From Bacilli bacterium (lineage in GTDB: Bacteria; Bacillota; Bacilli; Paenibacillales; KCTC-25726), in contig DASVDB010000082.1 in NCBI GenBank assembly GCA_036381315.1, positions 1 through 32,463 of the forward strand: a DNA stretch of 32,463 bases. Direction: 5' to 3'. The notes under the pieces are model-generated. The model was not told where the DNA came from. It saw nothing but the letters and a program-made list of their open reading frames with translations, and ran no database searches. This document shows positions 10,336-29,431 of this stretch, in pieces. Made by a program: the position numbers and the translations under genes. Every line of letters begins with the position of its first letter. Position 1 is the stretch's first letter.

Positions 10336-10357
10336 CGCCCAAAAGGAGGGACAGGCC

Positions 10358-13117
10358 TTGAAAAAACGGAAATGGTGGAAACGCGGAGGATGTGCGACCT
10401 TCGCGATGCTGCTGATTTTGTCGTCCACTCGGCTGGCCGCCCCGGCCTATGCGGGATCGTCGACTTTGCCGACGACCCAGTCGGTCACCAGCCTGTATAT
10501 GTCTAACTGGTCAGATCAGATGAACGTCTGGATGGCCAGCAAGCTGGCGCAAACGGACACCGGTACGTACGGGCCGAGAATCGCGGAGATGCGAATCAGC
10601 AAAGATTTCAACACGAACCAGATCAAGGACTATTCCGGCTTTTTCCGCGACGAGACGCATACAGTCAAATACGACCAGATCCACAACTTCAACTCGCAAG
10701 CGTATTATGACGACGGAGGCGTTTTGCGCACCCAGTATCTGGATTACAGCGGCTCGAACATGCCGGTGACCGTGACCAAAGATTACGCCATGGTGCCAAA
10801 TCGGGGGATTACTGTAGCCACCTACACTTTCACGAATAACAGTACAAGCCCGATCAACTACAATCTGCTGGAACAAATCCACGTCAACAATAAGACTCTC
10901 GGCAGCACGAACAAACTCATCAGCGGTTATTATGATAGCGTGCGTAACACGCTGTTCGTCGACATGAGCAACTCTGGACAATATTACGTGGCGCTTACTG
11001 CGCTGCAGCCTATGACCGGCTATCAGGTGGCTAACGATGCGGTGTCCGATACGAGCCAAAACAACTGTGCTGCTTGGTACACCTTCGACCAAAACGGCAC
11101 GGTGAAAAACAACGCCAGCGAAACCGCCCCAGACATCAGCATCGCTTTCCAAAAATCGTTTACGATTCCGGCTAACGACTCGGTGACGCTGTCCTTTGTC
11201 GCGACGGTTCGCGATACGCTCGCCCACGCGCAGAGCGCTGTCGACACGGCGCGAGGGCAAACGGCGTCATACTGGTTCGCGCAAACCCAGAACGCATACG
11301 CCAACTGGCTTGCCAGCGGAAAGTCCGTCAGTTTCGCCGACGACGGCATCAACAAGGCGTACAAACGGGCGCTTATCACGATCAAAAATGCGATCCAACC
11401 GGTATCGGGCGCCATCCCTGCGACAACGAACCCGTTCGCTTATGGTTACAAAGTGTGGATCCGGGACAGCGCCGTCACGGCGATGATTCTTGATCAGGCC
11501 GGGTTCCACAGCGAAGCAGAAAAATATTTTTATTGGCTGAAAGACAGGCAATCAACCGACGGCAGCTTCAAAACGACGTTCAACTTGTGGGACAGCAGCT
11601 ATGTGCCGTTCGTCGAGCCGGAAAACGATGCGGTCGGCATTTATTTGATCGCCGCGTATCTCCATTACAAGCTGACAGGAAGTTCGACGTTCCTGAACGA
11701 CTTCTGGACGAGCTACAAAAAGGCAGCCGATTTCATCTATAACTACATCGGCACGGATCCCTACGGCTTCGGCCCTGCCGACGCCAGCATCTGGGAGGAG
11801 CAGGTTGAGTACAACATCTTCACGCAATCCTTGTACGCAACCGGGCTGGATGCCGCGCAATACATGGCGCGCGCCAAAGGCTTGCCCGCGTTGGCGGACA
11901 ACTACAACGGCGTCGCCAGCCAAATTCGTACCAGCATCAACCGCAACGACACCTGGAACCCGAAAGGGAACTGGAACGCGGCAAGCGGCTACTTCAATCG
12001 GGCCGTAACGACAAGCGGCGGGGCGAACGCGCTCATCGACGCTTCGTCTATGGCGGCTGTCGTGTACGGTACCATCGATGCCGCTTCTTCCCGGGCCGCC
12101 AGCCAGGCTGCCGTCATTATCAGCCATCTGCAGCACGACGGCTACGGCATTGCGCGTTATTCCGGCGATATATTCTATTACACATCGCCTTATAGCCCGG
12201 CCGGCAACGAAGCGCTGAGCGACGAACCTTCGTGGCCGCAGATGACTGCATACTTGGCGCTGTATTCCATTTACAGAGGGGACTTAACGAATGCATTGAA
12301 CGAATTGACGTGGATGGTATCGCGAACGGGAGTCGGCTATATGATGCCGGGTGAGGCAGTTTCCCGCGTGACGCTCAAGCCGCTGCCCAGCACGATGGTA
12401 GAACCGGTGACGGCCGCGTGGTTCGTTTTGACTGCGCTTGCCTATGAGGGACAAGCGGACATTCGTGTCATTTCTCCTCAGGCCAATGTTGGCGCATACA
12501 AGACGATTTCCGTCACGACGAACGTTGCTTCGGATCTGCCGCAATATAGTGACGTTCCGTATTACGTCAGCAATAAAGCGAGCGTGTCCGGCTCGGGCGA
12601 CACGGACATCCTGCAGGTGCATGTCAGCAACGATGCGAACAACCTGTATATCCGAATCAAAAATAAAAGCGGCAGCTTACCCGCATTCAACGAGACTCCC
12701 AGATTCGGCATGCTCGTGTACGCTGAAGATTTTAAACATGGGGCGGCAGCTTCTTCCGACACCGCAATGTACGGGTCGACGCTTGACCATGCGGCGCAAT
12801 ATATGGTCGGCCGATGGAGCGACAGCAACAACTATGCGATGTTCAAGTTTGTCGGCGGCGCATGGACGTTCGATCATTTTATCACCGGTGTCATCGCGCC
12901 ACAGTGGGATCCCGCCTCGGGAAACATCGAGATGGTCATTCCGCTATCTGAGTTGTCCAGCACCGGTTTCGTCACCGACGGCGACTATAGCAACCTGAAT
13001 GTGGTGCTCGTGCGGCAAAACCCGGCGACGCTGGCTTGGTCGGAGGATGACATGCAGGCGCTGCATGTTCGCAAAATGGCAAGCGGAGAAATGTGGTTCT
13101 ACGGCAACGTGCAATAA
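10358..13117 (+). CDS. Secreted GH15 glucodextranase/glucoamylase-like enzyme
   Basis: A 919-aa secreted glycosidase that should release glucose from non-reducing ends of alpha-1,6-glucans. It has a signal peptide (cleavage likely AYA-GS near residue 33), an N-terminal beta-sandwich (~35-290), an (alpha/alpha)6 GH15 barrel (~310-695) and a C-terminal beta domain (~705-919) resembling the DOMON-like domain of glucodextranases. The general acid is expected at E480 in the WEEQ motif and the general base at E666 in MMPGEAVSR; the WIRDSA substrate-site motif is present near residue 367. Start is TTG at 10358-10360, with AAGGAGGG 7 nt upstream. It follows the GH66 gene by 22 nt and ends at a strong terminator. 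Dextran specificity is inferred from the neighbours and the C-terminal domain; a general glucoamylase is the alternative. Confidence 0.88.
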   Translation: MKKRKWWKRGGCATFAMLLILSSTRLAAPAYAGSSTLPTTQSVTSLYMSNWSDQMNVWMASKLAQTDTGTYGPRIAEMRISKDFNTNQIKDYSGFFRDETHTVKYDQIHNFNSQAYYDDGGVLRTQYLDYSGSNMPVTVTKDYAMVPNRGITVATYTFTNNSTSPINYNLLEQIHVNNKTLGSTNKLISGYYDSVRNTLFVDMSNSGQYYVALTALQPMTGYQVANDAVSDTSQNNCAAWYTFDQNGTVKNNASETAPDISIAFQKSFTIPANDSVTLSFVATVRDTLAHAQSAVDTARGQTASYWFAQTQNAYANWLASGKSVSFADDGINKAYKRALITIKNAIQPVSGAIPATTNPFAYGYKVWIRDSAVTAMILDQAGFHSEAEKYFYWLKDRQSTDGSFKTTFNLWDSSYVPFVEPENDAVGIYLIAAYLHYKLTGSSTFLNDFWTSYKKAADFIYNYIGTDPYGFGPADASIWEEQVEYNIFTQSLYATGLDAAQYMARAKGLPALADNYNGVASQIRTSINRNDTWNPKGNWNAASGYFNRAVTTSGGANALIDASSMAAVVYGTIDAASSRAASQAAVIISHLQHDGYGIARYSGDIFYYTSPYSPAGNEALSDEPSWPQMTAYLALYSIYRGDLTNALNELTWMVSRTGVGYMMPGEAVSRVTLKPLPSTMVEPVTAAWFVLTALAYEGQADIRVISPQANVGAYKTISVTTNVASDLPQYSDVPYYVSNKASVSGSGDTDILQVHVSNDANNLYIRIKNKSGSLPAFNETPRFGMLVYAEDFKHGAAASSDTAMYGSTLDHAAQYMVGRWSDSNNYAMFKFVGGAWTFDHFITGVIAPQWDPASGNIEMVIPLSELSSTGFVTDGDYSNLNVVLVRQNPATLAWSEDDMQALHVRKMASGEMWFYGNVQ

Positions 13118-13127
13118 AGAGGGCTCA

Positions 13128-13157
13128 TGGGACGGCTTTGTAGCCGTCCCATTTTTT
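13128..13157 (+). terminator. Rho-independent terminator of the GH66-GH15 operon
   Basis: TGGGACGGCT (13128-13137) pairs perfectly with AGCCGTCCCA (13142-13151) around TTGT, followed by TTTTTT. It starts 10 nt after the GH15 stop codon and separates the secreted enzymes from the transport operon. The gap to 13349 holds no gene; a CATAAT at 13305-13310 is the only -10-like element seen before the next operon and lacks a clear -35. Confidence 0.93.
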
Positions 13158-13349
13158 CTGCGCCGCCGGGGATGTCGCTTTTTTTCCGGGAAACCGGATG
13201 ATCGCGGACCGCTTCTTTTTCATCTTTCGCCAAGAACGGGCAAATGCCGAATTTCGTGCACCAAAACGGAAAAGAGAGAAATGTCGCCGGCGGTTTCCGG
13301 ACCTCATAATAAAAGTGCAACCAATTTCGTTAAATGAGGGGGAAGTCCG

Positions 13350-14690
13350 GTGAAACTTGCATATGCGACAGCAAAAGGGTTCGTGGCAATTGTACTGGCC
13401 GCCATGTTATTGTCGGCATGCGGATCAAATTCGGATCAGGGAGCGGCTTCGGGCGGCGCGTCCCCGAGCGCGGCGCCGTCAGCGAGCCCGAGCGATTCGG
13501 CATCAGCCGAGCCGGTCACGGTCGAATTTTGGCACGCTTACGGCGAAGGGGAAGAGAAGGTACTGCTCGAGCAGGTCATTCCGAAGTTTGAGGCGTCGAA
13601 CCCGGGCATCAAAATCCATGCGACGCGCATGCCGACCGAAAATCTGGATCAGCAAGTGCTCACGGCTGTAGCGGGCGGGACACCGCCCGACATCATGCGG
13701 ATGGACAACACCTGGGTGCCCAATATGGCGAAGCAGGGGGCGCTGCAGGAAATAGACGGGTTCCCGAACGCGCAGGACATTTTGAACCAATCTTTTAAAG
13801 GTACCGCCGATACGAACCTGTACAACGGCCATTACTACGGGGTGCCGCTGGATACGAACACGCGCGTGGCGATTTACAATCAGGAACTGCTGCAAAAGGC
13901 CGGAGGTTCGGAGCCTCCGAAAACGATGGACGATCTGGCCAATCTCGCCCGTAGCATCAAATCGAAAGGCAAATATTACGGCATCACGATCGGCGGCACG
14001 AACGTTTGGGATTTCTCAGCCTTTTTCTGGACACTCGGCGGTCAATATACCGATCCAACGTACACGAAAGCGACCGGCTATCTGAACTCAGACGCCAGCG
14101 TCAAAGCGCTGGAGACGATTTACGGATGGTATAAGGAAGGACTACTCGCACCTCCGATCCTGGGCGGACAGCCGGGAACATGGGAAGGCTTGCGCGGCGA
14201 CCAGGGTAAGCCGGCATCTTACATGATGATTACGGACGGTCCGTGGTTCTTCTCGCTGATCGGCGACCAGGACACCAAAGGCAAAATGCTTCCCGCCCTG
14301 ATCCCGGCGGGGCCCGACGGGCAAAGCCACTCCGTCGTCGGCGGCGAAGACCTGGTCATCTTCAACGGAGCGAAACATGCGCAGGAAGCCTGGAAGTTTG
14401 CGCAGTTCATGACCTCGACGGAAATCCAGTTGCTGATGGTCAAACAAACCGGCCAAATTCCGACGAACACCGAGGCGGCGCAGTCGCCGGAACTCAAGGA
14501 CATTTGGTATTTGCAGCCGTACATCGATCAGCTCAAGACCGCATATACGCGAACGCCCAGTCCAAACGCGAACAAAATCAACGATGCAATCGCCGCCGCC
14601 TTCGAGTCGGTATTCCGCAACAAAGCGACACCGAAGGACGCGCTGGACAAAGCGGCCCAGCAGGTGGACAGCTTCCTGAACGAAAAATAA
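13350..14690 (+). CDS. ABC transporter sugar-binding lipoprotein
   Basis: A 446-aa family 1 extracellular solute-binding protein, the receptor of the sugar importer encoded by the next two genes. The signal peptide ends in the lipobox LLSAC, so the mature protein would be lipid-anchored at C24. A low-complexity Ser/Ala/Pro/Gly linker follows (residues ~30-50), then the two-lobed binding fold beginning VTVEFWHAYGEGEEK. Motifs IMRMDNTWVPNMAKQGAL and YYGVPLDTN are typical of maltose/multiple-sugar binders. Start is GTG at 13350-13352, with AGGGGG 7 nt upstream. It heads an operon with two permeases and a cytoplasmic GH66, so its ligand is probably isomaltooligosaccharides or their cyclic forms (inference). 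It is clearly paralogous to the binding protein at 21841-23133. Confidence 0.92.
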   Translation: MKLAYATAKGFVAIVLAAMLLSACGSNSDQGAASGGASPSAAPSASPSDSASAEPVTVEFWHAYGEGEEKVLLEQVIPKFEASNPGIKIHATRMPTENLDQQVLTAVAGGTPPDIMRMDNTWVPNMAKQGALQEIDGFPNAQDILNQSFKGTADTNLYNGHYYGVPLDTNTRVAIYNQELLQKAGGSEPPKTMDDLANLARSIKSKGKYYGITIGGTNVWDFSAFFWTLGGQYTDPTYTKATGYLNSDASVKALETIYGWYKEGLLAPPILGGQPGTWEGLRGDQGKPASYMMITDGPWFFSLIGDQDTKGKMLPALIPAGPDGQSHSVVGGEDLVIFNGAKHAQEAWKFAQFMTSTEIQLLMVKQTGQIPTNTEAAQSPELKDIWYLQPYIDQLKTAYTRTPSPNANKINDAIAAAFESVFRNKATPKDALDKAAQQVDSFLNEK

Positions 14691-14707
14691 ACGCCGGAAG
14701 GGCATGG

Positions 14708-14736
14708 CGGCAGTCGGACGATTGGGCCGGCTGCCG
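14708..14736 (+). other. Intercistronic stem-loop between binding-protein and permease genes
   Basis: CGGCAGTCGG (14708-14717) pairs with CCGGCTGCCG (14727-14736) with one G-U pair; the loop is 9 nt. It is followed by TTCCTTTCC, not a T run, so it is more likely a transcript-stabilising or partial-termination element than a full stop. Such hairpins often keep binding-protein mRNA more abundant than permease mRNA. Confidence 0.5.
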
Positions 14737-14771
14737 TTCCTTTCCGCGTACCGAAAAGGATCGAATGTCAC

Positions 14772-15668
14772 ATGCCAAAAGCGCTGAAGCAGTATGTCCA
14801 GGTGGCTCCCTTTCTGCTCGTCGGATTGGTGCTGACACTTGCTTTCGTCCTGTATCCGATGGTGAAGGGGATGTACATCAGTTTCTTTCACTATAATGTC
14901 ATCAAGCCGGACACGAGCACGTCCGTCGGATTCGCCAACTACGCCCACGTGTTCCGGGACCCGAAAAACGGCATCGCGCTGCGCAACTCCCTGCTCATGG
15001 TGCTGGTGACCGTACCGGGGCAATGGCTATGCGGCATGTTGCTTGCTCTGCTGATCAACTTGCGGACGGTGCGCGTCAAGGTGTTCTGGCGGCTTATCTA
15101 CTACGTGCCAGTCATCAGCTCCTGGATCGTCGTGTCGTATTTATTCCAGTTTTTATTTGCCGACGGGAACGAAGGCCTGGTCAACTATTTTCTCGTTGAC
15201 GTTCTGCATGTGCTGCGGGAGCCGATCGGCTGGCTGCAACATACATGGTCCGCCAATTTGGTCGTGTGGATCGTCAGCATCTGGAAAGGCGCAGGCTGGG
15301 TCATGGTGCTTTATCTGGCGGCGCTGCAGTCAATTCCGGCCGCTCTTTACGAGGCCGCGGAAATCGACGGCGCGAAAGGCATAAGGGCGTTCCTGTCCAT
15401 CACCTTGCCGCTCATGCGTCCCGTCACCGCCTACGTCATCATCAATCTGATCAACGGTGCGGTACAGGCGTTTATCCAGGTATACGCGATTACGCAGGGC
15501 GGTCCGCTGGACACCACGCAACTGCTCAACACTTACCTGTACAAACAGGCGTTTCAGTATTTCGATTTTGGCTATGCCTCTGCCATCAGCGTTTGCCTCG
15601 GGGCACTGATTTTCGTCCTGACGTATGCGCAACAACGCACGATCGGCAGGGACCGGATCGAATATTAA
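14772..15668 (+). CDS. ABC sugar transporter permease, MalF/UgpA type
   Basis: This 298-aa protein has six predicted membrane helices and the cytoplasmic EAA loop (EAAEIDGAKGIRAFLSITLP, ~residues 196-215) that docks onto the ATPase. It forms the import channel with the permease encoded 12 nt downstream. Start ATG 14772 is preceded by AAAGGA at 11 nt. No ATP-binding subunit is encoded nearby. Firmicute importers of this CUT1 type usually share a general ATPase such as MsmX encoded elsewhere, which I infer here. Substrate is assigned from the operon (alpha-1,6-gluco-oligosaccharides), not from the permease sequence. Confidence 0.92.
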   Translation: MPKALKQYVQVAPFLLVGLVLTLAFVLYPMVKGMYISFFHYNVIKPDTSTSVGFANYAHVFRDPKNGIALRNSLLMVLVTVPGQWLCGMLLALLINLRTVRVKVFWRLIYYVPVISSWIVVSYLFQFLFADGNEGLVNYFLVDVLHVLREPIGWLQHTWSANLVVWIVSIWKGAGWVMVLYLAALQSIPAALYEAAEIDGAKGIRAFLSITLPLMRPVTAYVIINLINGAVQAFIQVYAITQGGPLDTTQLLNTYLYKQAFQYFDFGYASAISVCLGALIFVLTYAQQRTIGRDRIEY

Positions 15669-15680
15669 GGAGCTGACGCC

Positions 15681-16508
15681 ATGAAAATCGTCAAAACATG
15701 GATTGTTCATCTGTTGCTTTTTCTCGGTATTTTTCTCGTGATCGGACCGTTTGTGTACATGGTGCTGACGTCGCTGACGGTGGACAACTTCAGCCTGCCG
15801 AGCCCGCAGAAGCTGCTGCACGATACAAAGACGCTGCAAAACTTCGCGCAGGCCTGGGGCAAAAACCATTTTCAGCTCTATTTCCGCAACAGCTTATTTG
15901 TGACGGCGTGCACGATGCTGTTCTCGCTTACTTTGTCCGCGAGCATGGCGTACGCTTTTGCGCGCTTCGAATTCCCGGGAAAAGAACTGCTGTTCCGGCT
16001 GTTTCTGTTCACGCTGTTCGTGCCGGGGTTTCTCAACATCATTCCGCAGTTCACGATTCTGAAAAGCCTCCGGCTGGTAGACAACTACGCCGGGCTCATC
16101 TTGCTGTACGTCGGTTCGGGACTGGTTGGCAGCACCTTCTTTTTGCGCGGTTTTTTCGAACGGATTCCCCGGGAGTTGGAGGAATCGATCTTGATCGACG
16201 GCGGAAGCCGGTTCACCATTTTCCGCGTCATCTACATCCCGCTTTCGCTGCCGGCGATTGGCACGCTGGCGATCTTCTCGTTTCAGGGGACGTGGGATGA
16301 GTTCGTTGTGGCGTTAACGGTCATGAAATCGGAAATTCACCGCACCTTGCCGATCGCGCTGCAACTATTCCGGGGACAGTACGCCTCCTATTACGGATTG
16401 TTTTTCGCCGCGTCGATCATCGCGCTCATACCGACGATCATCGTGTTTTTCGTGTTCCAAAAGCAGTTCGTACAGGCGAACCTTTCGGACGGCAGCGTCA
16501 AAAGTTAG
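15681..16508 (+). CDS. ABC sugar transporter permease, MalG/UgpE type
   Basis: A 275-aa second permease subunit with six hydrophobic helices and a recognisable EAA loop (ELEESILIDGGSRFTIFRVI, ~residues 170-190), with the usual Gly of the motif inside DGGS. It pairs with the MalF-like permease immediately upstream. The start ATG has AAGGAG about 8 nt before it, overlapping the end of the upstream gene. The next gene, a cytoplasmic GH66, begins 24 nt downstream, so import and first intracellular cleavage are co-transcribed. Confidence 0.92.
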   Translation: MKIVKTWIVHLLLFLGIFLVIGPFVYMVLTSLTVDNFSLPSPQKLLHDTKTLQNFAQAWGKNHFQLYFRNSLFVTACTMLFSLTLSASMAYAFARFEFPGKELLFRLFLFTLFVPGFLNIIPQFTILKSLRLVDNYAGLILLYVGSGLVGSTFFLRGFFERIPRELEESILIDGGSRFTIFRVIYIPLSLPAIGTLAIFSFQGTWDEFVVALTVMKSEIHRTLPIALQLFRGQYASYYGLFFAASIIALIPTIIVFFVFQKQFVQANLSDGSVKS

Positions 16509-16532
16509 CATCGAGATACGGAGGGTTAGAGT

Positions 16533-18302
16533 ATGGACAAAAACATGCGGATTGCGGCTTCCGCGCTGGCGGTCGAATTGACGCCGGACAAGGCGCAATA
16601 CCGTCCAGGCGAGCCGGCCGTCATCCGGGTCGAAGCGAAGTTTGATGCGGAACGGCTGCCGTTTCGCTGGTCGGTGTGCGAGTTACACCGGATCTTGCTG
16701 GAAGGGGAAGGCGAGCTGCGCAAGGAACGGGACGGCGTCCTTGCGGCGGAACTTCGCATTCCCGCCTTCGATAAAGCTTCGGGCGCTTACGGGGTGTTCG
16801 TTTCAGTTGGCGACGAGGGAAACGGCGGCGTTCAGGTAAGCGCGGAAACCGCCTACGATGTCGCCGCCCATTGGCGCGAGGCGCCCCGCTACGGCTTTCT
16901 GAGCGATTTCCCGCCGGATGACCGGGACGATGGGGACGTGGCGTTCCTGAACCGACACCATCTGAACGTCGTTCAGTTTTACGACTGGATGTATCGGCAC
17001 GACCGGCTGCTCACGGATGAGGAACCGTTCACCGATCCGCTAGGGCGAACGGTGTCGCTGGATGTCGTGCGGCGCAAAATCGCGGCGCTGAAAGCCAGGG
17101 GCATCGCTTCCCTGGCCTACGCGGCGGTGTATGCCAGCCTGCCGGATTACGCCCGGGCGCATCCGGAGCAGGTGCTGTACCAGAATGACGGCGTTCCCTA
17201 CCGGTTGGGCAACTTCTTTTATATTATGGACATTTCCCCGGGCTCCGCATGGACCGAGCACATCACCGACCAGTTTGCGGCAGCGGTCGCGTGGGGGTTT
17301 GACGGGCTGCACCTGGATCAGTACGGATTTCCAAAACAGGCGATCCGCAAAACGGACGGCGGCGCCGAAGTCGTCCGGCTGAAGGAACTGTATCCTGCGA
17401 TCATCAACCGGAGCCGGGAAAAGACGCCGGACGCCGGCCTCATTTTCAACAACGTCGGCTCCTATCCGCTGCACACGACCGCCGCTGCGGCACAGGACGC
17501 CTTGTACATCGAAGTTTGGGATCCGGTGACAAGGCTGTACGATCTCTATGCACTCGTCCGGCGGGCCCGGGCTTTGACGGCGAAGCCGGTCATTCTCGCC
17601 GCGTATCTTCCGGCGTTTCACCCGGAGCGTCCCGTTGATCCGGAGGCGGCCGAGGCGGGCGCGACGGTTGCCATGGCGGCTATTTTCGCCTCGGGCGCGT
17701 ACCATCTGCTGCTCGGCGAACGTGGCGGCGTGCTCGCCGATCCGTATTATCCGAAGTACGGCACCGCTTCGCCCGCTTTTCAACGGCGATTGACCGCTTA
17801 TTATGACTTTATCGTCCTGTATCGCGATTTGCTGTTCGACCCGACAATCGACGACTGGACGGAGTCGTTCACGGGCGGCATCAACAATGAACTGGTTTTC
17901 CGCAAGGAAGGGGTGGCGTTTTCGACCGACGCGCGATTGGGAACGATATGGACGCTGGCCAGGGAGAAACCCGGGTTTCAGGTCATCCATCTGCTGAATT
18001 TGATCGGGCTGGACAACGACGTCTGGCACGCGCCGAAAGCGCAACCGCCGCAGCCACTCGAAGAGATCGTGATCGAACTGGAAGTCGTGGAGGATATCGA
18101 GGGGGTGTATGCGGCCACACCGGACGGCGGCTCGATCCGGCCGCAGCCGCTCGCATATGAATGGATACCGACCGAATGGTCCGGCCGGAAAATCCGCTTC
18201 ATTTTGCCGAAACTTGATTATTGGTCGGTCGTCTACGTGAAGAGCCGCGCTGGCGTCCCGGCCGGCACGTTCGATCCGGCCGTTTATCCGGGGAAACGGT
18301 AA
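16533..18302 (+). CDS. Cytoplasmic GH66 dextranase-like glycosidase
   Basis: A 589-aa GH66 enzyme with no signal peptide (MDKNMRIAASALAVEL) and no CBM35 insertion. It has an N-terminal Ig-like domain (~10-115), the GH66 barrel (~120-470) and a C-terminal beta domain. D262 in GFDGLHLDQYG is the expected nucleophile and E327 in LYIEVW the acid/base. It shares RYGFLSDF, QFYDWMYRHD and AAYLPAF-type blocks with the secreted GH66 at 7420-10335 (there RYGYLSVF, QYYDWMWRHD, AAYMDY). Its position directly behind the importer says it cuts imported isomaltooligosaccharides or opens imported cyclic ones; that role is inferred. The start ATG follows GGAGGG. No alpha-1,6-glucosidase to finish the job lies in this window. 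A GC-rich hairpin without a T run follows the stop. Confidence 0.88.
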   Translation: MDKNMRIAASALAVELTPDKAQYRPGEPAVIRVEAKFDAERLPFRWSVCELHRILLEGEGELRKERDGVLAAELRIPAFDKASGAYGVFVSVGDEGNGGVQVSAETAYDVAAHWREAPRYGFLSDFPPDDRDDGDVAFLNRHHLNVVQFYDWMYRHDRLLTDEEPFTDPLGRTVSLDVVRRKIAALKARGIASLAYAAVYASLPDYARAHPEQVLYQNDGVPYRLGNFFYIMDISPGSAWTEHITDQFAAAVAWGFDGLHLDQYGFPKQAIRKTDGGAEVVRLKELYPAIINRSREKTPDAGLIFNNVGSYPLHTTAAAAQDALYIEVWDPVTRLYDLYALVRRARALTAKPVILAAYLPAFHPERPVDPEAAEAGATVAMAAIFASGAYHLLLGERGGVLADPYYPKYGTASPAFQRRLTAYYDFIVLYRDLLFDPTIDDWTESFTGGINNELVFRKEGVAFSTDARLGTIWTLAREKPGFQVIHLLNLIGLDNDVWHAPKAQPPQPLEEIVIELEVVEDIEGVYAATPDGGSIRPQPLAYEWIPTEWSGRKIRFILPKLDYWSVVYVKSRAGVPAGTFDPAVYPGKR

Positions 18303-23133: not shown

Positions 23134-23143
23134 GTTTGGTATC

Positions 23144-23311
23144 ATGGGGGACGTCTGGATCGAGGAACTGAAGGATAAATATTGGGGCGCTACGCACAAT
23201 TGTTTTGCTTACGCCATCGGCGAGCAGGACCGGTGGCAGAAAGCGTCGGGGCGCTTTGTCCACCCGAAGCGGATGAGGCGCAGCAGTTTCAGGCCTGGAT
23301 CGCCGATCTGA
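23144..23311 (+). pseudogene. Remnant of a YigZ/IMPACT-family gene
   Basis: The reading frame from ATG 23144 contains DVWIEELKDKYWGATHNC then FAYAIGEQDRWQKAS. This matches the conserved core of YigZ/YvyE proteins, where a helix ending in WxATHNCxAY-IGE is followed by DDGEPSGTAG. The similarity stops at about 23247, exactly before the GEPSGTAG motif, and the frame ends at 23311. A different frame (23251-23343, ending TAA 23341) also looks protein-like but I cannot name it. About 35 of ~210 residues remain, so the gene is dead. From 23312 to 23663 there is a terminator, a 7-bp hairpin (23414-23433) and a promoter, but no gene. Confidence 0.65.
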
Positions 23312-23565: not shown

Positions 23566-23574
23566 TGATATAAT
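23566..23574 (+). promoter_or_regulatory. Extended -10 promoter of the wall-precursor operon
   Basis: TGATATAAT is a perfect extended -10 in an AT-rich stretch with a poor -35 (TTTAAT near 23547). The leader to the first start codon is about 82 nt. Confidence 0.62.
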
Positions 23575-23663
23575 GTGTTATGATTTGTAGAGAAACAACC
23601 AGGCATGGGACTACAGCGACAAGGGTTTTCAAGGTTAATAGAAGAAATGAGTGATTGATTGGA

Positions 23664-24848
23664 ATGAAGAACAAGGCGGTCATTTTAGGCACGAATTATT
23701 ACATCGGGCTAAGCGCGATTCGCTGTTTGGGCGTTCACGGCATTCACACGGTGGCGGTTGATTATTCGGCGGATAATACGTATGGCGCAAAGTCCAGGTA
23801 TTGTTCCGAACAACTCATTTCACCGCATTATAAGGTAGACCCGCAAGGATATGTCGCGTTTTTAATCGATTATGCGAAAAAACAAGATGAACCGCCCGTA
23901 TTGATTCCCTGTCATGATTTTTACGTTGAAATTATTGACGAGCATTTGGATGAATTGAAAGAGCATTTTCTCATTCCGCAAACCGAAAAAGGCCTGTATA
24001 CCAAGCTCATGAATAAGGAAACGCTGCACCGCCTGGCGGTGGAACACGGCGTCGCCGTTCCGGAAACGGTCAGGGTGCATGAAGAGAACCTGTTTGAAAA
24101 AGTGGAAAGCATCATCAAATTTCCGTGCATTGTCAAACCCGTCGACTCGCCAGCGTTCATGGCAAAATTCCGCAGAAAATTGTTCAAGGTGCATAACCTC
24201 ACCGAGCTGAAAGAAGCTTTGGAGAAGGCGAAAAACGCCGGCCTGGAAGTCGTTGTGCAGCGGATAATTCCCGGCTTCGACGATCATATGTATACGTTTG
24301 ACGCCTATTTGAACCAGGACGCCAAGGTGACGCATTGGGCCACATGCCAAAAATATCGCCAGTATCCGATCAATTTCGGCGCGTCCGTCTACACGGGACA
24401 AAAATTGGTGCCGGAATTGTATGATATCGGCGCCGCATTTTTCGAGGCGATCAAATACAAAGGCTTTGCGGAAATCGAGTTCAAAAAGGACGCGGAAACA
24501 GGAAAGTTCTATCTGATTGAAGTCAATGTGCGGCTTACGAATTTTAATCACCTGTTATATAAGATCGGCCTGAATATTCCTTATATCACCTATCAGGAAT
24601 TAACCGGACAAGCGGTCGAACCGAAAGCGATCACGTGGGATACGCGGCGGGTTTTTTGGTATGCGTATGAGGATTTGTTTGCCATCCGCGATTATTTGAA
24701 AACCGGGCAGCTTACAATAGGAAACGTACTGGCCTCGTTTTTCAAGCCAAAGGCGTTTGCCATTTGGGACTTACGCGACTTGCGGCCGGCGTTTTCCTTC
24801 GCGGGCATGATTGCACAGAAAGCGCTGCGGAAAGCCTTGAAAAAATAA
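23664..24848 (+). CDS. ATP-grasp ligase, D-aspartate ligase (AslA)-like
   Basis: A 394-aa ATP-grasp enzyme of the carboxylate-amine ligase type. The N-terminal domain opens with AVILGTNYYIGLSAIRCLG; the stretch LIPCHDFYVEIIDEHLDELK and the following LMNKETLHRLAVEHGVAVP resemble the corresponding region of enterococcal/lactococcal D-aspartate ligases. The ATP-binding Lys is in FPCIVKPVDSP, and the metal-binding C-terminal motif is EIEFKKD followed by LIEVNVRLTN. AslA adds D-Asp to the side-chain amine of a peptidoglycan precursor. That function fits the racemase, MurE-like and asparagine synthetase genes downstream, but is an inference. The start is ATG 23664; an in-frame TTG at 23655 is less likely and the ribosome site is weak. 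No membrane segment or signal peptide. Confidence 0.75.
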   Translation: MKNKAVILGTNYYIGLSAIRCLGVHGIHTVAVDYSADNTYGAKSRYCSEQLISPHYKVDPQGYVAFLIDYAKKQDEPPVLIPCHDFYVEIIDEHLDELKEHFLIPQTEKGLYTKLMNKETLHRLAVEHGVAVPETVRVHEENLFEKVESIIKFPCIVKPVDSPAFMAKFRRKLFKVHNLTELKEALEKAKNAGLEVVVQRIIPGFDDHMYTFDAYLNQDAKVTHWATCQKYRQYPINFGASVYTGQKLVPELYDIGAAFFEAIKYKGFAEIEFKKDAETGKFYLIEVNVRLTNFNHLLYKIGLNIPYITYQELTGQAVEPKAITWDTRRVFWYAYEDLFAIRDYLKTGQLTIGNVLASFFKPKAFAIWDLRDLRPAFSFAGMIAQKALRKALKK

Positions 24849-24887
24849 CGCCGTCACGCTGAACAAATTTGGACTGGGGCTGACTTT

Positions 24888-26372
24888 ATGCGTTTATCCT
24901 CGATTGTGGACAATCTGGAGTTTGTTTTGCTGCAAGGAAATCTGAATCGGGACGTAGCCTCCATTGCCTTCGACTCGCGGGAAGCGGTCAAGGACGGCCT
25001 GTTTGTGGCCATCACGGGCTTTAAGACGGACGGACACAACTATATTGAAAAAGCGCTGGAATTGGGCGCGGGTACGATTGTCGTGGAAAAAGACGTTGTC
25101 GCACCGGACGGCGTAACGATATTAAAATTCGCCGACACGCGCGACGCGTTGGCTGGCATCGCGGCCAATTTTTACGGCCGCCCGACCGAGCGGCTGAACT
25201 TGATCGGCATTACGGGCACGAATGGCAAAACCTCGACATCGTATTTCATTCGCTCCATTTTTCAACAGGCGCAGAAATCGATGGGGATGATCGGCACCAT
25301 CGGTACGGTTATCAACCAAAAGGTGGTCAAAAACAGCAACACGACTCCCGAGTCGCTCCATTTGCAGCGCATTTTTGCCGAGATGGTCGCGGCCAAACTC
25401 GATCACTGCGTCATGGAAGTGTCCTCGCATGCGCTCAGCTTGAAACGCGTCGCTTACTGCAACTTTAACACGGGCATTTTTACGAATCTGACGCCGGATC
25501 ATTTGGAATTGCATCATAGCATGGAGGAGTATTTTCAGGCAAAAGCGCAATTATTCGCCATGACAAAAGACTGCAACATCATCAATATTGACGATGAATA
25601 CGGACGAAGGTTGGCGCTTGCCGGCAAAAATCGCGACGCCAAACTCATCACCTACGGGGTCGAAAACTTTGCCGATATTTACGCTGCGGATATTCACTAT
25701 GACGCCGATTCAACCGCGTATACCGCGCATACCCCGATCGGCAGCGTGCCGATCAAAGTCAATTTGCCGGGCATTATTTATGTTTATAATAGCCTCGCGG
25801 CGGTTGCCTGCGCTTACAGCAACGGCATCAAGTTGGCGGATATCCAGGCGGGCATCGGCAATGTGCAATCGATTCAAGGCAGGCACGAAGTCATCTACCA
25901 GGATGACGATTACAAAGTCATTGTCGATTTTGCCCATACGGAAGACGGCCTGGAGAAGCTTTTAACGTCTTTGCGGCCGTTTACCGCGGGGAGAATCATT
26001 CTGGTGTTCGGCGTATATGTTGCGGCCGCAGGCGCGGAGGGCAGGGAAAAACGCCGGGCAATGGGCAAAGTGGCGGCCAAACATGCCGATATAGCGATTG
26101 TGACATCCGACAATCCGAAAGAGCAGGATCCGGTTATGATTATAAACGAGATTGTCGAAGCGATCGAAGAAGAGAACGGCCAATATAAAGCGTTTATCGA
26201 CCGTAGGGAGGCGATCCGGCATGCGATTCACATTTGCCGCAAGGGCGATTGTGTGTTGCTTGCCGGCAAAGGGCATGAAACTTCGCAAATCATCGGGAAG
26301 CGGGAAATTCCGTTTAACGAAAGAGAAATTGTCCTTGAATGTCTGAAAGCGGAAAAACAAATCGCGATCTAG
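24888..26372 (+). CDS. MurE-like UDP-N-acetylmuramyl-peptide ligase with altered substrate motifs
   Basis: A 494-aa Mur ligase that would add an amino acid to a UDP-MurNAc-dipeptide. The N-terminal UDP-binding domain, P-loop GTNGKT (110-115), carbamylated-Lys position K219 in YFQAKAQLF, and the C-terminal LLAGKGHETSQ motif are all present, so catalysis should be intact. Two motifs differ from meso-DAP enzymes. The usual GCGGDRD block reads VFGVYVAAAGAEGREKR, and DNPR reads DNPK (408-411). In E. coli MurE, arginines of exactly these two motifs contact meso-DAP, so this enzyme may prefer another amino acid such as L-Lys. It could be a second MurE beside one in the division cluster. It lies 39 nt after the ATP-grasp gene and 29 nt before the asparagine synthetase gene. 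Confidence 0.88.
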   Translation: MRLSSIVDNLEFVLLQGNLNRDVASIAFDSREAVKDGLFVAITGFKTDGHNYIEKALELGAGTIVVEKDVVAPDGVTILKFADTRDALAGIAANFYGRPTERLNLIGITGTNGKTSTSYFIRSIFQQAQKSMGMIGTIGTVINQKVVKNSNTTPESLHLQRIFAEMVAAKLDHCVMEVSSHALSLKRVAYCNFNTGIFTNLTPDHLELHHSMEEYFQAKAQLFAMTKDCNIINIDDEYGRRLALAGKNRDAKLITYGVENFADIYAADIHYDADSTAYTAHTPIGSVPIKVNLPGIIYVYNSLAAVACAYSNGIKLADIQAGIGNVQSIQGRHEVIYQDDDYKVIVDFAHTEDGLEKLLTSLRPFTAGRIILVFGVYVAAAGAEGREKRRAMGKVAAKHADIAIVTSDNPKEQDPVMIINEIVEAIEEENGQYKAFIDRREAIRHAIHICRKGDCVLLAGKGHETSQIIGKREIPFNEREIVLECLKAEKQIAI

Positions 26373-26401
26373 CTGATGCGGCGCAATGAAAGGTGATAAC
26401 T

Positions 26402-28246
26402 GTGTGCGGTTTCGTCGGTTTTGCAAACACGAACGCGGCTGTAGATAAAGAAAAGACAATCCAGGATATGATGAACACAATCGTGCACCGGGGACCGGAC
26501 AGCGGCGGTGTGTACGCGGACGAACAGGTGACTTTGGGGTTTCGCCGCCTGATGATTATCGACCTGTCGCAAGAAGCAAGCCAGCCGATGTATAACGAAG
26601 ACAAAAGCTGCGTGCTTGTTTTTAACGGGGAAATCTACAACTTTAAGGAACTGCGGGAAGAACTGCGCGCCAAGGGGCACCGGTTCGCCAGCAACACGGA
26701 CAGCGAAGTGCTCATCCACGGATACGAAGAATACGGCGTGCAATTATTGCGGAAACTCCGGGGGATGTTTGCCTTTGCCATTTGGGACAGGAAAAACGAA
26801 TCACTGTTTTTGGCGCGGGATTTTTTCGGCATCAAACCACTATACTACACGCAACATACAACCGACAACTGCTTCATCTTCGGTTCGGAAATCAAATCGT
26901 TCCTCAAGCACCCGGCATTTAAAAAAGAGCTGAACAAAGACGCGCTGAAACCGTATCTCACGTTCCAATATTCCGTTCTCGACGAAACGTTTTTTAAAGG
27001 CGTGTACAAGCTCAAACCCGGTCACTACATGCTGTACAAAAATGGCGCCGCCACGATCGAGCCGTACTGGGACGTTAATATGGAAGCGCGTGAAAACAGC
27101 CTGGAATATTACCGGGAAAAGATCAAAGCGACCATGGAAGAGTCCGTCCGCTACCATCAAATCAGCGACGTCAAGGTAGGCTCTTTCTTGTCCGGCGGAA
27201 TCGATTCGAGCTATGTCACAACGCTGTTGCGGCCGGATAAGACGTTTTCCGTCGGGTTTCAAGACCATGAAGGCATCTTTAACGAAACGAATTTGGCGAA
27301 AGATCTCTCCGATATTTTGCATATCGAAAACTATAAAAGGCTGATTGACGCCGACGATTGCTTTAACGCGCTGCCGACGATTCAATACCACATGGATGAG
27401 CCGCACTCCAACCTTTCCGCCGTGCCTTTGTACTTTTTGGCGGAGATGGCGAGCAAGCATGTGACGGTCGTGTTGTCCGGGGAGGGCGCGGATGAAATTT
27501 TCGGCGGTTATGACTGGTATCGCAGCACGCCGCTGATGGACAAATATGAAAAAGTGCCGTTTGCCATCCGCCGCGCCGTTTCACTTCTCTGCCGGAGACT
27601 GCCGCAAAACCGCATCGTTTCCTTCCTGGTAAAAGGCGGGCAAAAGGTCGAGGAAAAATTCATCGGCCAGGCAAAAGTATTTTCCGAACAAGACGCGAAC
27701 GCGGTGCTGCAGGAAGAATACCGGCACGGGCCGTCGGTAGCCAGCATTTTGCGGGAAGCCTATGCGAAGGTGCAAGGCAAAGACGACGTAACGAAGATGC
27801 AGTATATCGATCTAAAATTCTGGCTGCCGGGCGATATTTTGCTGAAAGCCGACAAAATGAGCATGGCGCATTCGCTGGAGTTGCGGGTGCCTTTTCTCGA
27901 TAAAGTCGTCATGGCATTGGCTGCGCAAATACCGGCCAAGCTGCGCGTGAACAAGAGCGCCACCAAGTATGCGTTAAGAGCCGCCGCCAAAGAAGTATTG
28001 CCGGAAGAATGGGCGAACCGGAAAAAGGTCGGCTTCCCGGTTCCCATAAGATACTGGTTGCGCGAGCAAAAGTACTATGATATCGTAAAACAAACATTTG
28101 CATCCGACATCGCCGGACAATTTTTCGTTCGCGACAAACTGCTCGCATACTTGCAGGAACATTTCACCGGGAAAAAAAATCACGCCCGTTACATTTGGAC
28201 CGTGTATGTATTTCTGGTATGGTATAAAAAGTTTTTCGCAGATTGA
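26402..28246 (+). CDS. Glutamine-hydrolysing asparagine synthetase, AsnB/AsnH type
   Basis: A two-domain amidotransferase that takes ammonia from glutamine and amidates an aspartate carboxyl. The start is set at GTG 26402, because the next codon is Cys, the catalytic nucleophile exposed after Met removal (VCGFVGF); AAGGTGA lies just upstream. An in-frame GTG at 26393 would bury that Cys. The glutaminase domain spans ~1-215 (IVHRGPDSGG, FNGEIYN). The synthetase domain begins near residue 235 with the pyrophosphatase loop SGGIDSS (264-270) and contains LSGEGADEIFGGYDWY and LPGDILLKADKMSMAHSLE. At 614 aa it is normal for AsnB. In Lactococcus, AsnH of this family amidates peptidoglycan D-Asp; with a racemase and a D-Asp-ligase-like gene beside it, that role is favoured over free asparagine synthesis. 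Confidence 0.93.
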   Translation: MCGFVGFANTNAAVDKEKTIQDMMNTIVHRGPDSGGVYADEQVTLGFRRLMIIDLSQEASQPMYNEDKSCVLVFNGEIYNFKELREELRAKGHRFASNTDSEVLIHGYEEYGVQLLRKLRGMFAFAIWDRKNESLFLARDFFGIKPLYYTQHTTDNCFIFGSEIKSFLKHPAFKKELNKDALKPYLTFQYSVLDETFFKGVYKLKPGHYMLYKNGAATIEPYWDVNMEARENSLEYYREKIKATMEESVRYHQISDVKVGSFLSGGIDSSYVTTLLRPDKTFSVGFQDHEGIFNETNLAKDLSDILHIENYKRLIDADDCFNALPTIQYHMDEPHSNLSAVPLYFLAEMASKHVTVVLSGEGADEIFGGYDWYRSTPLMDKYEKVPFAIRRAVSLLCRRLPQNRIVSFLVKGGQKVEEKFIGQAKVFSEQDANAVLQEEYRHGPSVASILREAYAKVQGKDDVTKMQYIDLKFWLPGDILLKADKMSMAHSLELRVPFLDKVVMALAAQIPAKLRVNKSATKYALRAAAKEVLPEEWANRKKVGFPVPIRYWLREQKYYDIVKQTFASDIAGQFFVRDKLLAYLQEHFTGKKNHARYIWTVYVFLVWYKKFFAD

Positions 28247-28290
28247 TAGAAAGCTTGCGTAAAAATAATCTGATTAAAGTGGGTCGTGCT

Positions 28291-29025
28291 ATGTCTGGAA
28301 AAAGCTTGGGTGTTCTTGGAGGAATGGGGCCGAAGGCGACCGCCGTATTTTTTGACCGTATCGTTGAACATACGGAAGCCGGCAAAGACCAGGATCATAT
28401 TGATATGGTGATCGTCAACCATGCGACGCTTCCCGACCGGACGACGGTGATTGCAAAACAGCGGGGCGAAGTGTTTTTGGAAGCGATCCGCAAGGACATT
28501 CGCCTGCTGGAGTTGGCGGGAGTGGGCAATATCGCCATCCCGTGCAATACTTCGCATTATTTCTTTGAGCAATTGCAGGGCATGACCAAAATCAACATAA
28601 TCAATATGGCCAAAGAGACGGCAAGCGAAATTCGCCGAGTTTACGGCCCGGGCGCAAAAGTTGGCATCCTGGCGACCACCGGCACAATCAAGAGCGGCGT
28701 GTACCAAAACGTGTGCGAGGAATTCGCGCTTACTCCGCACATCCCGGATGAACTTGTCCAGCAAAAGGTGATGAAAATCATCTACGATGATGTAAAAAGC
28801 GGCGTAAACGCCGATGCGGCCGCGTTCGCGGCGATTATTCGGGAACTCGTGGAACGCGCCCGTTGCGCATGTGTCATCATTGCCTGCACGGAACTTTCCT
28901 GCATCAAGCTGCGGGACGATATTAGCAAGTATTGCGTGGATGCAATGGATGTTCTCGTGCGAAGATCGATCGAATTGTCCGGCAAAAAGGTGAAAAAAAC
29001 TGACGGGAAAGAGGGATGCCGATGA
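28291..29025 (+). CDS. racD: Aspartate racemase family protein
   Basis: A PLP-independent Asp/Glu-racemase-superfamily enzyme interconverting L- and D-aspartate. From ATG 28291 (MSGKSLGVLGGMGPKAT) it is 244 aa. The two catalytic cysteines are C85 in IPCNTSHYF and C199 in ACTELSCI; GGMGP near the N-terminus and NHATLPDRT are typical of aspartate racemases. An open frame extends upstream into the end of asnB, but ATG 28291 gives the family's normal N-terminus and has GTGGG upstream. It would supply D-Asp to the ATP-grasp ligase in the same operon. The stop overlaps the start of the next small gene (ATGA). The racD symbol follows the lactococcal gene of the same proposed role; amino-acid specificity was not tested. 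Confidence 0.87.
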   Translation: MSGKSLGVLGGMGPKATAVFFDRIVEHTEAGKDQDHIDMVIVNHATLPDRTTVIAKQRGEVFLEAIRKDIRLLELAGVGNIAIPCNTSHYFFEQLQGMTKINIINMAKETASEIRRVYGPGAKVGILATTGTIKSGVYQNVCEEFALTPHIPDELVQQKVMKIIYDDVKSGVNADAAAFAAIIRELVERARCACVIIACTELSCIKLRDDISKYCVDAMDVLVRRSIELSGKKVKKTDGKEGCR

Positions 29026-29234
29026 CGCCACATGAGGAAGCGGCGTTTGCGAAATTTTTGGCCGATTCCTTTCAGGATGGTACAAGCATTCGCGAGTTGC
29101 GTTTGTCCGAAGAGGAGAAGCAATTTATCTTAAAAACGTATCCGCGGTCACGCGTGCGTCCGTTTTCCACGGATGAATACGCCGACGGCAAAACATGGTA
29201 TCAAGTCAGCCTGTCAGCTTCTTCGCAGGCATAA
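29022..29234 (+). CDS. 70-aa protein of unknown function, translationally coupled to the racemase gene
   Basis: I do not recognise this protein. It starts at ATG 29022, overlapping the racemase stop as ATGA, with GAGGG 6 nt upstream; an ATG at 29016 is too close to that ribosome site. It has 70 residues, no signal peptide and no membrane segment. It is acidic and probably helical in the first half (HEEAAFAKFLADSF, LSEEEKQFILKTYP), then has a short basic and aromatic part (SRVRPFSTDEYADGKTWYQV). It is the last gene of the operon, 17 nt before a strong terminator, and its conserved-looking coupling suggests it is real. A small regulator or partner of the upstream enzymes is possible but unsupported. 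Confidence 0.7.
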   Translation: MTPHEEAAFAKFLADSFQDGTSIRELRLSEEEKQFILKTYPRSRVRPFSTDEYADGKTWYQVSLSASSQA

Positions 29235-29250
29235 ATGCTACAGCGCCGCG

Positions 29251-29287
29251 ATGCCTGTACCTTGTCAAGGGTACGGGCATTTTTTTT
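29251..29287 (+). terminator. Rho-independent terminator of the wall-precursor operon
   Basis: ATGCCTGTACC (29251-29261) pairs with GGTACGGGCAT (29270-29280), 11 bp with one G-U pair, followed by a T run (29280-29287). It lies 17 nt after the 70-aa protein gene. Confidence 0.92.
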
Positions 29288-29431
29288 GCGCAATGTTGCG
29301 AATTGGGATATTTTCGCTTATGATGTGCAACATCTTTGTGCAATTATGCGTTTCAAATAATAGGATAGAGAAAAAGGTTTTCCATTTACGCAAAACGAAG
29401 CCGCAACAGGTTATTTCGAAATTGGCCGGCG

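Follow-up and report, generated by a model that had tools for sequence, protein, structure and literature searches.

Five tightly packed genes on the + strand of the window (the whole stretch of 32,463 nucleotides that was analysed) encode an ATP-grasp ligase, a MurE-like ligase, an asparagine synthetase, an aspartate racemase and a small protein. On balance, this operon would appear to be a self-contained pathway in the cytoplasm that leads to a second peptidoglycan precursor, one which carries D-Asp or D-Asn on a residue other than DAP. The first-pass annotation had proposed a D-Asp or D-Asn branch; the evidence shifts the reading from a DAP wall that bears D-Asp towards an alternative precursor whose third residue is not DAP and which carries D-Asp or D-Asn.

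For the substrates, the order of steps, the product and the conditions of its use we infer the following. The racemase would convert L-Asp to D-Asp, and the MurE-like ligase would extend UDP-MurNAc-L-Ala-D-Glu by a diamino acid that is not meso-DAP, most likely L-ornithine or L-lysine. The ATP-grasp ligase would activate D-Asp and couple it to the side-chain amine of this third residue, and the asparagine synthetase could then convert the D-Asp to D-Asn by amidation. Completion as a cross-link of the A4 type (diamino acid-D-Asp/D-Asn) would fall to MurF, MraY and the usual enzymes, and the canonical meso-DAP route would be retained alongside to serve the main wall or the spore cortex.

Structure and distribution of the operon

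The features of the operon are:

23569-23574, + strand: possible -10 box TATAAT (letters read directly; poor -35; unproven)
23664-24848, + strand: ATP-grasp amino-acid ligase, candidate D-aspartate ligase (Dala_Dala_lig_C match)
24888-26372, + strand: MurE-like ligase, class A (DNPK, not DNPR; GGDRD arginine gone)
26402-28246, + strand: glutamine-dependent asparagine synthetase family amidotransferase (TIGR01536, above cut-off; GATase and Asn_synthase domains)
28291-29025, + strand: aspartate racemase family enzyme (Asp/Glu racemase; ATG at 28291; TIGR00035)
29022-29234, + strand: small ORF, start overlapping the racemase stop (ATGA)
29250-29288, + strand: intrinsic terminator (14-pair stem, 4-base loop, T run)

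All four enzyme genes of the first-pass annotation were found in place, on one strand and closely packed; the conserved small ORF had been missed. The open frame of the ATP-grasp gene begins with TTG at 23655, and the conserved ATG at 23664 is probably the true start. For the asparagine synthetase, whose frame is open from 26393, a start at GTG 26402 yields the N-terminal sequence MCGF with the catalytic Cys. Of the one promoter and one terminator described earlier, the terminator is borne out by its 14-pair hairpin, whereas the promoter, with its poor -35, is no more than plausible: a promoter scan did not list the TATAAT box and gave just a weaker alternative nearby. An Rfam scan of the window showed no RNA element. 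The operon is flanked by a sugar-ABC/two-component locus on the 5' side and a lipoteichoic acid synthase-like gene on the 3' side, neither of which is a steady neighbour in relatives. Elsewhere in the window, positions 7420-18302 encode an ABC set for sugar uptake together with a GH15-like enzyme and two GH66 enzymes, which probably make up a locus for dextran or cycloisomaltooligosaccharides. A short frame at 23135-23308, which may be the remnant of a gene, resembles UPF0029 (YigZ/YvyE) at E 0.001, short of the Pfam cut-off.

Orthologues of the ATP-grasp ligase with 66–75% identity turned up in the same order, where 22 of 395 genomes have one, and in many named Bacillota. The best 80 of 207 matches covered Paenibacillus, Cohnella, Chengkuizengella, Bacillus, Cytobacillus, Virgibacillus, Oceanobacillus, Halobacillus, Ornithinibacillus and clostridial MAGs. 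The operon is not peculiar to the strain, orthologous loci being found in many spore-forming Bacillota; a survey found its gene order kept across dozens of named genomes as well as in relatives from the same order, and for this reason the operon is real and not due to chance. Its distribution is patchy within the order and fixed within Halobacillus. A MurE-like gene accompanies the ATP-grasp gene in at least 83 of 86 loci; near the ATP-grasp gene of these loci were found the racemase (72 loci), AsnB (35), a secreted SpaA-C39 peptidase (27) and the small gene (28). Ligase and MurE form a stable core, and the racemase, the amidotransferase and the secreted C39 peptidase come and go.

A product specific to spores, in germ cell wall, cortex or coat, would agree with the presence of SpoIVA in all 14 carriers tested, the window genome among them. 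We consider this improbable, since the mother-cell and late sporulation promoter patterns searched (sigma E, G and K) were not enriched upstream of 83 loci, and a spore-only role is left without support. The sigma F pattern gave two matches there, where none was expected, which is too few to count, and the upstream regions of Paenibacillus loci, inspected by eye, contain a vegetative-type TTGTAA-17-TAAAAT. Orn-D-Asp, moreover, is a vegetative wall type.

The MurE-like and ATP-grasp ligases

The operon MurE has three Mur ligase domains, the P-loop, the carbamylated Lys and the UDP-MurNAc-dipeptide motifs, and it lacks the features of a meso-DAP-specific MurE, i.e., DNPR and the GGDRD arginine. 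The earlier designation as a MurE paralogue understated the difference, since with the meso-DAP motifs lost the enzyme probably performs a step which replaces DAP. Two classes were distinguished. In class A, which includes the window protein, DNPK and FGVY...KR occur in all members, GKGHE is retained and the GGDRD arginine is lost throughout; the Lys at the position of the DAP-binding Arg could still read a distal carboxylate. Class B has lost all three DAP motifs and contains YAIRG(E/S)RG, KDxV and GCQGMD instead. TTPES and SSxAL...R, which mark the site for the UDP-MurNAc-dipeptide, are kept in both classes. When the classes are mapped onto the ATP-grasp tree, one takes the place of the other 3–6 times; for instance, Paucisalibacillus (class A) groups with Ornithinibacillus (class B) at full support. 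Since two dissimilar classes swap beside one conserved ATP-grasp ligase, it is suggested that they do the same job and feed the same partner. The operon MurE probably provides, as third residue, a diamino acid different from DAP, to which the ATP-grasp ligase would add D-Asp.

A canonical MurE (GGDRD, DNPR, GKGHE) was also found in the window genome and in 22 of 22 named genomes tested, and DapF in all 10 genomes tested; the window genome and the carriers keep both, in agreement with the meso-DAP host that had been presumed. Their retention would also suit an operon which decorates the standard meso-DAP precursor: the MurE-like protein would then be one more ligase for DAP (or LL-DAP), and D-Asp would be placed on the free amine of DAP by the ATP-grasp enzyme. 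For this speak further the GKGHE and the nearly complete DNPR of class A, together with a score of the window protein above an NCBIfam DAP-ligase cut-off. We regard decoration as unlikely, however, since no class A member has the GGDRD arginine, class B has none of the DAP motifs and yet exchanges with class A, and the host would have no need for a second identical enzyme.

Somewhat less likely again is a D-Asp-containing product outside the wall, either a soluble peptide or a storage polymer. The pair of ATP-grasp and Mur ligases recalls cyanophycin synthetase, which joins the two domains and to which a weak match was seen, and no peptidoglycan gene is among the steady neighbours of the operon; but the MurE-like proteins score as MurE with the dipeptide-site signatures intact, and the fixed presence in Halobacillus and the secreted C39 peptidase in operons of relatives fit a wall. 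A secreted peptide, named as a possible product in the first-pass annotation, is less likely, and a non-DAP precursor of peptidoglycan remains the preferred reading.

The model of the ATP-grasp ligase (pLDDT 93) is that of a full ATP-grasp enzyme, and its ATP and metal residues (E272, E286, N288, K158) are invariant in 32 sequences. Fold, residues and a genetic link to an aspartate racemase are shared with AslA/Aslfm, and the AslA (Aslfm)-RacD-AsnH pathway of Lactococcus and Enterococcus comprises the same activities: a racemase, an ATP-grasp D-Asp ligase and amidation by an asparagine synthetase. In L. lactis, racD adjoins aslA, as AslA-like genes adjoin racD and/or asnB in other Bacilli; the Lactococcus genes had been called scattered, which is partly wrong, as aslA and racD share one operon (PMC4155827). 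In contrast to that pathway, the window operon brings its own MurE, and it occurs in spore-formers that have a meso-DAP MurE as well. The window ligase is about 26–29% identical to AslA-like ligases over some 240–300 residues, and the ATP-grasp profile also detects AslA-type ligases linked to racD or asnB at E 1e-26 to 1e-29. In a tree with long branches, where the AslA-like set was recognised by racD and/or asnB neighbours in other Bacilli and contains no named AslA sequence, the clade of racD-linked AslA-like ligases excludes the window enzyme, which falls into its own clade with 97–98% support. Because of this position it is not filed as AslA and, by this tree, is no AslA orthologue; it probably works like AslA. 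A search for solved structures related to an AslA-type ligase found none.

PylC, an ATP-grasp enzyme of pyrrolysine biosynthesis, couples D-ornithine to the side-chain amine of L-lysine. The type of reaction is the same, and PylC is one of the fold neighbours of the ligase model (Z 24, rmsd 3.0, 14% identity). Its acceptor is a free amino acid, however, its pathway is archaeal, and many other ATP-grasp folds score equally, and the likeness was dropped as a claim of membership. In several genomes of the same order (L130, L131, L132), a further copy of the ATP-grasp gene shares about 57% identity with that of the operon, and Robertmurraya massiliosenegalensis (L082:10010-11197) has a solitary orthologue beside arsenic-resistance-like genes, with neither MurE nor racemase.

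Racemase, amidotransferase and accessory proteins

The closest solved structure to the racemase is the aspartate racemase of Pyrococcus horikoshii, 1jfl. The alignment retains both catalytic Cys, the Arg of PDRT and the Lys of VK(S/A)G, i.e., the set of residues that characterizes aspartate racemases; in the P. horikoshii enzyme, the aligned Arg and Lys presumably bind the side-chain carboxylate. PDRT and CTE were present in 72 of 72 operon racemases, and the first Cys occurred as PCNT or PCMT in those read. From these residues it appears likely that the operon racemase makes D-Asp. Racemization of cysteate, with D-cysteate leading to a sulfonated compound, is very improbable: the enzyme barely passes the NCBIfam cut-off for the cysteate racemase CuyB (192.7 vs 190 bits), but TIGR00035 scores higher, an aspartate racemase is the closest among solved structures, sulfonate genes were not seen nearby and the asparagine synthetase points to Asp. 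The CuyB match was judged to be a side match.

The amidotransferase has the N-terminal catalytic Cys and the glutaminase and synthetase domains of AsnB/AsnH, and orthologues with 74–75% identity occur in the operons of relatives. From its linkage to the other genes, it likely amidates the D-Asp branch. AsnB is optional: some genomes have it inside the operon, others have it at a separate site, and the rest lack it. An operon-type AsnB outside the operon was found in Ornithinibacillus bavariensis, O. californiensis, Paucisalibacillus, Virgibacillus oceani and 9 of 22 Halobacillus genomes. Absence of AsnB failed as the cause of unamidated D-Asp in Halobacillus, in view of these nine genomes; amidation of D-Asp is also incomplete in one known system.

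In 27 operon loci (e.g., L022:12282-13349) the gene directly after AsnB encodes an exported SpaA plus C39-type peptidase. In Virgibacillus oceani (L170:5427-6467), AsnB and peptidase lie apart from the operon and adjoin a MurE of the DDLN type. The small protein contains an invariant RELRLS motif and is conserved, its gene closing the operon in 28 loci; its model has a pLDDT of 86, and searches gave neither a Pfam family nor a matching fold. Homologues (e.g., L066:16985-17305 and L080:13664-13960) often have a coiled-coil-like C-terminal tail, which the window copy lacks.

Cell walls of the carriers

Halobacillus has on record a wall of the L-Orn-D-Asp type (A4beta), the type also given for Ornithinibacillus. 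The operon ligase was present in 22 of 22 Halobacillus genomes and in 1 of 22 other genomes of the same family, a strong difference, yet one which represents one lineage and not many independent events. In 5 of 6 Halobacillus and 2 of 2 Ornithinibacillus genomes, the operon enzyme was the only such ligase at E 1e-10; H. dabanensis had one additional, weaker match. This is telling, because AslA-like enzymes pass that threshold easily. The association with these two genera supports the reading of a D-Asp branch, with optional amidation, on an independent footing. Halobacillus walls have been recorded as not containing meso-DAP, except in H. campisalis (PMC10868198).

The Halobacillus and Ornithinibacillus operons have the same core as that of the window, with a ligase 66–71% identical to the window enzyme and universal in Halobacillus. 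Their MurE, in contrast, belongs to class B (YAIRG, KDxV, GCQGMD), and the Halobacillus racemase is about 33–36% identical to that of the window. In Ornithinibacillus bavariensis, whose name recalls the ornithine in its wall, the MurE-like genes found number just two: a canonical MurE with DNPR and the class B gene of the operon. Class B, as the only non-canonical MurE of this species, is by elimination a candidate ornithine ligase, and we infer a similar step for class A. Carriers in Paenibacillus, Cohnella and Virgibacillus have walls described as meso-DAP, and for this reason the product of the operon there would be minor, conditional or different. A precedent for two MurE activities in one spore-former is Lysinibacillus sphaericus with its dual wall, Lys-D-Asp in vegetative cells and meso-DAP in the cortex.

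A wider interpretation is tentative: the operon could be a patchily distributed, probably horizontally shared cassette of wall chemistry, which provides a second, D-Asn-branched peptidoglycan with another third residue in meso-DAP spore-formers, and the main wall in Halobacillus. Wall type is an old taxonomic character, for which, to our knowledge, few genes have been assigned outside lactic acid bacteria and staphylococci; for the L-Orn-D-Asp wall we know of no gene assignment, and the papers searched gave none either. If the proposed route is right, the operon would name candidate genes for this wall and a family of D-Asp ligases unlike AslA, and the cassette, if true, would provide the genetic basis of the Orn-D-Asp wall type and make that ligase family a new one. 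A hidden or conditional non-DAP peptidoglycan would then be predicted for Paenibacillus, Cohnella, Bacillus and Clostridia, missed by routine DAP tests, with a bearing on wall recognition by lysozyme, endolysins and immune receptors.

Halobacillus genomes contain three to five or more MurE-like ligases each (L164-L178, L182, covering Halobacillus, Ornithinibacillus and Virgibacillus), including the DDLN type. The latter was rejected as the Halobacillus ornithine ligase, being absent in O. bavariensis and H. locisalis (motifs were read in some genomes only). A further Halobacillus type has HPG, is without KGHE and adjoins a metal-transport P-type ATPase-like gene. Chengkuizengella axinellae (L179:7654-11181) has, outside its operon and adjoining a further AsnB-like gene, a second MurE with intact DAP motifs.
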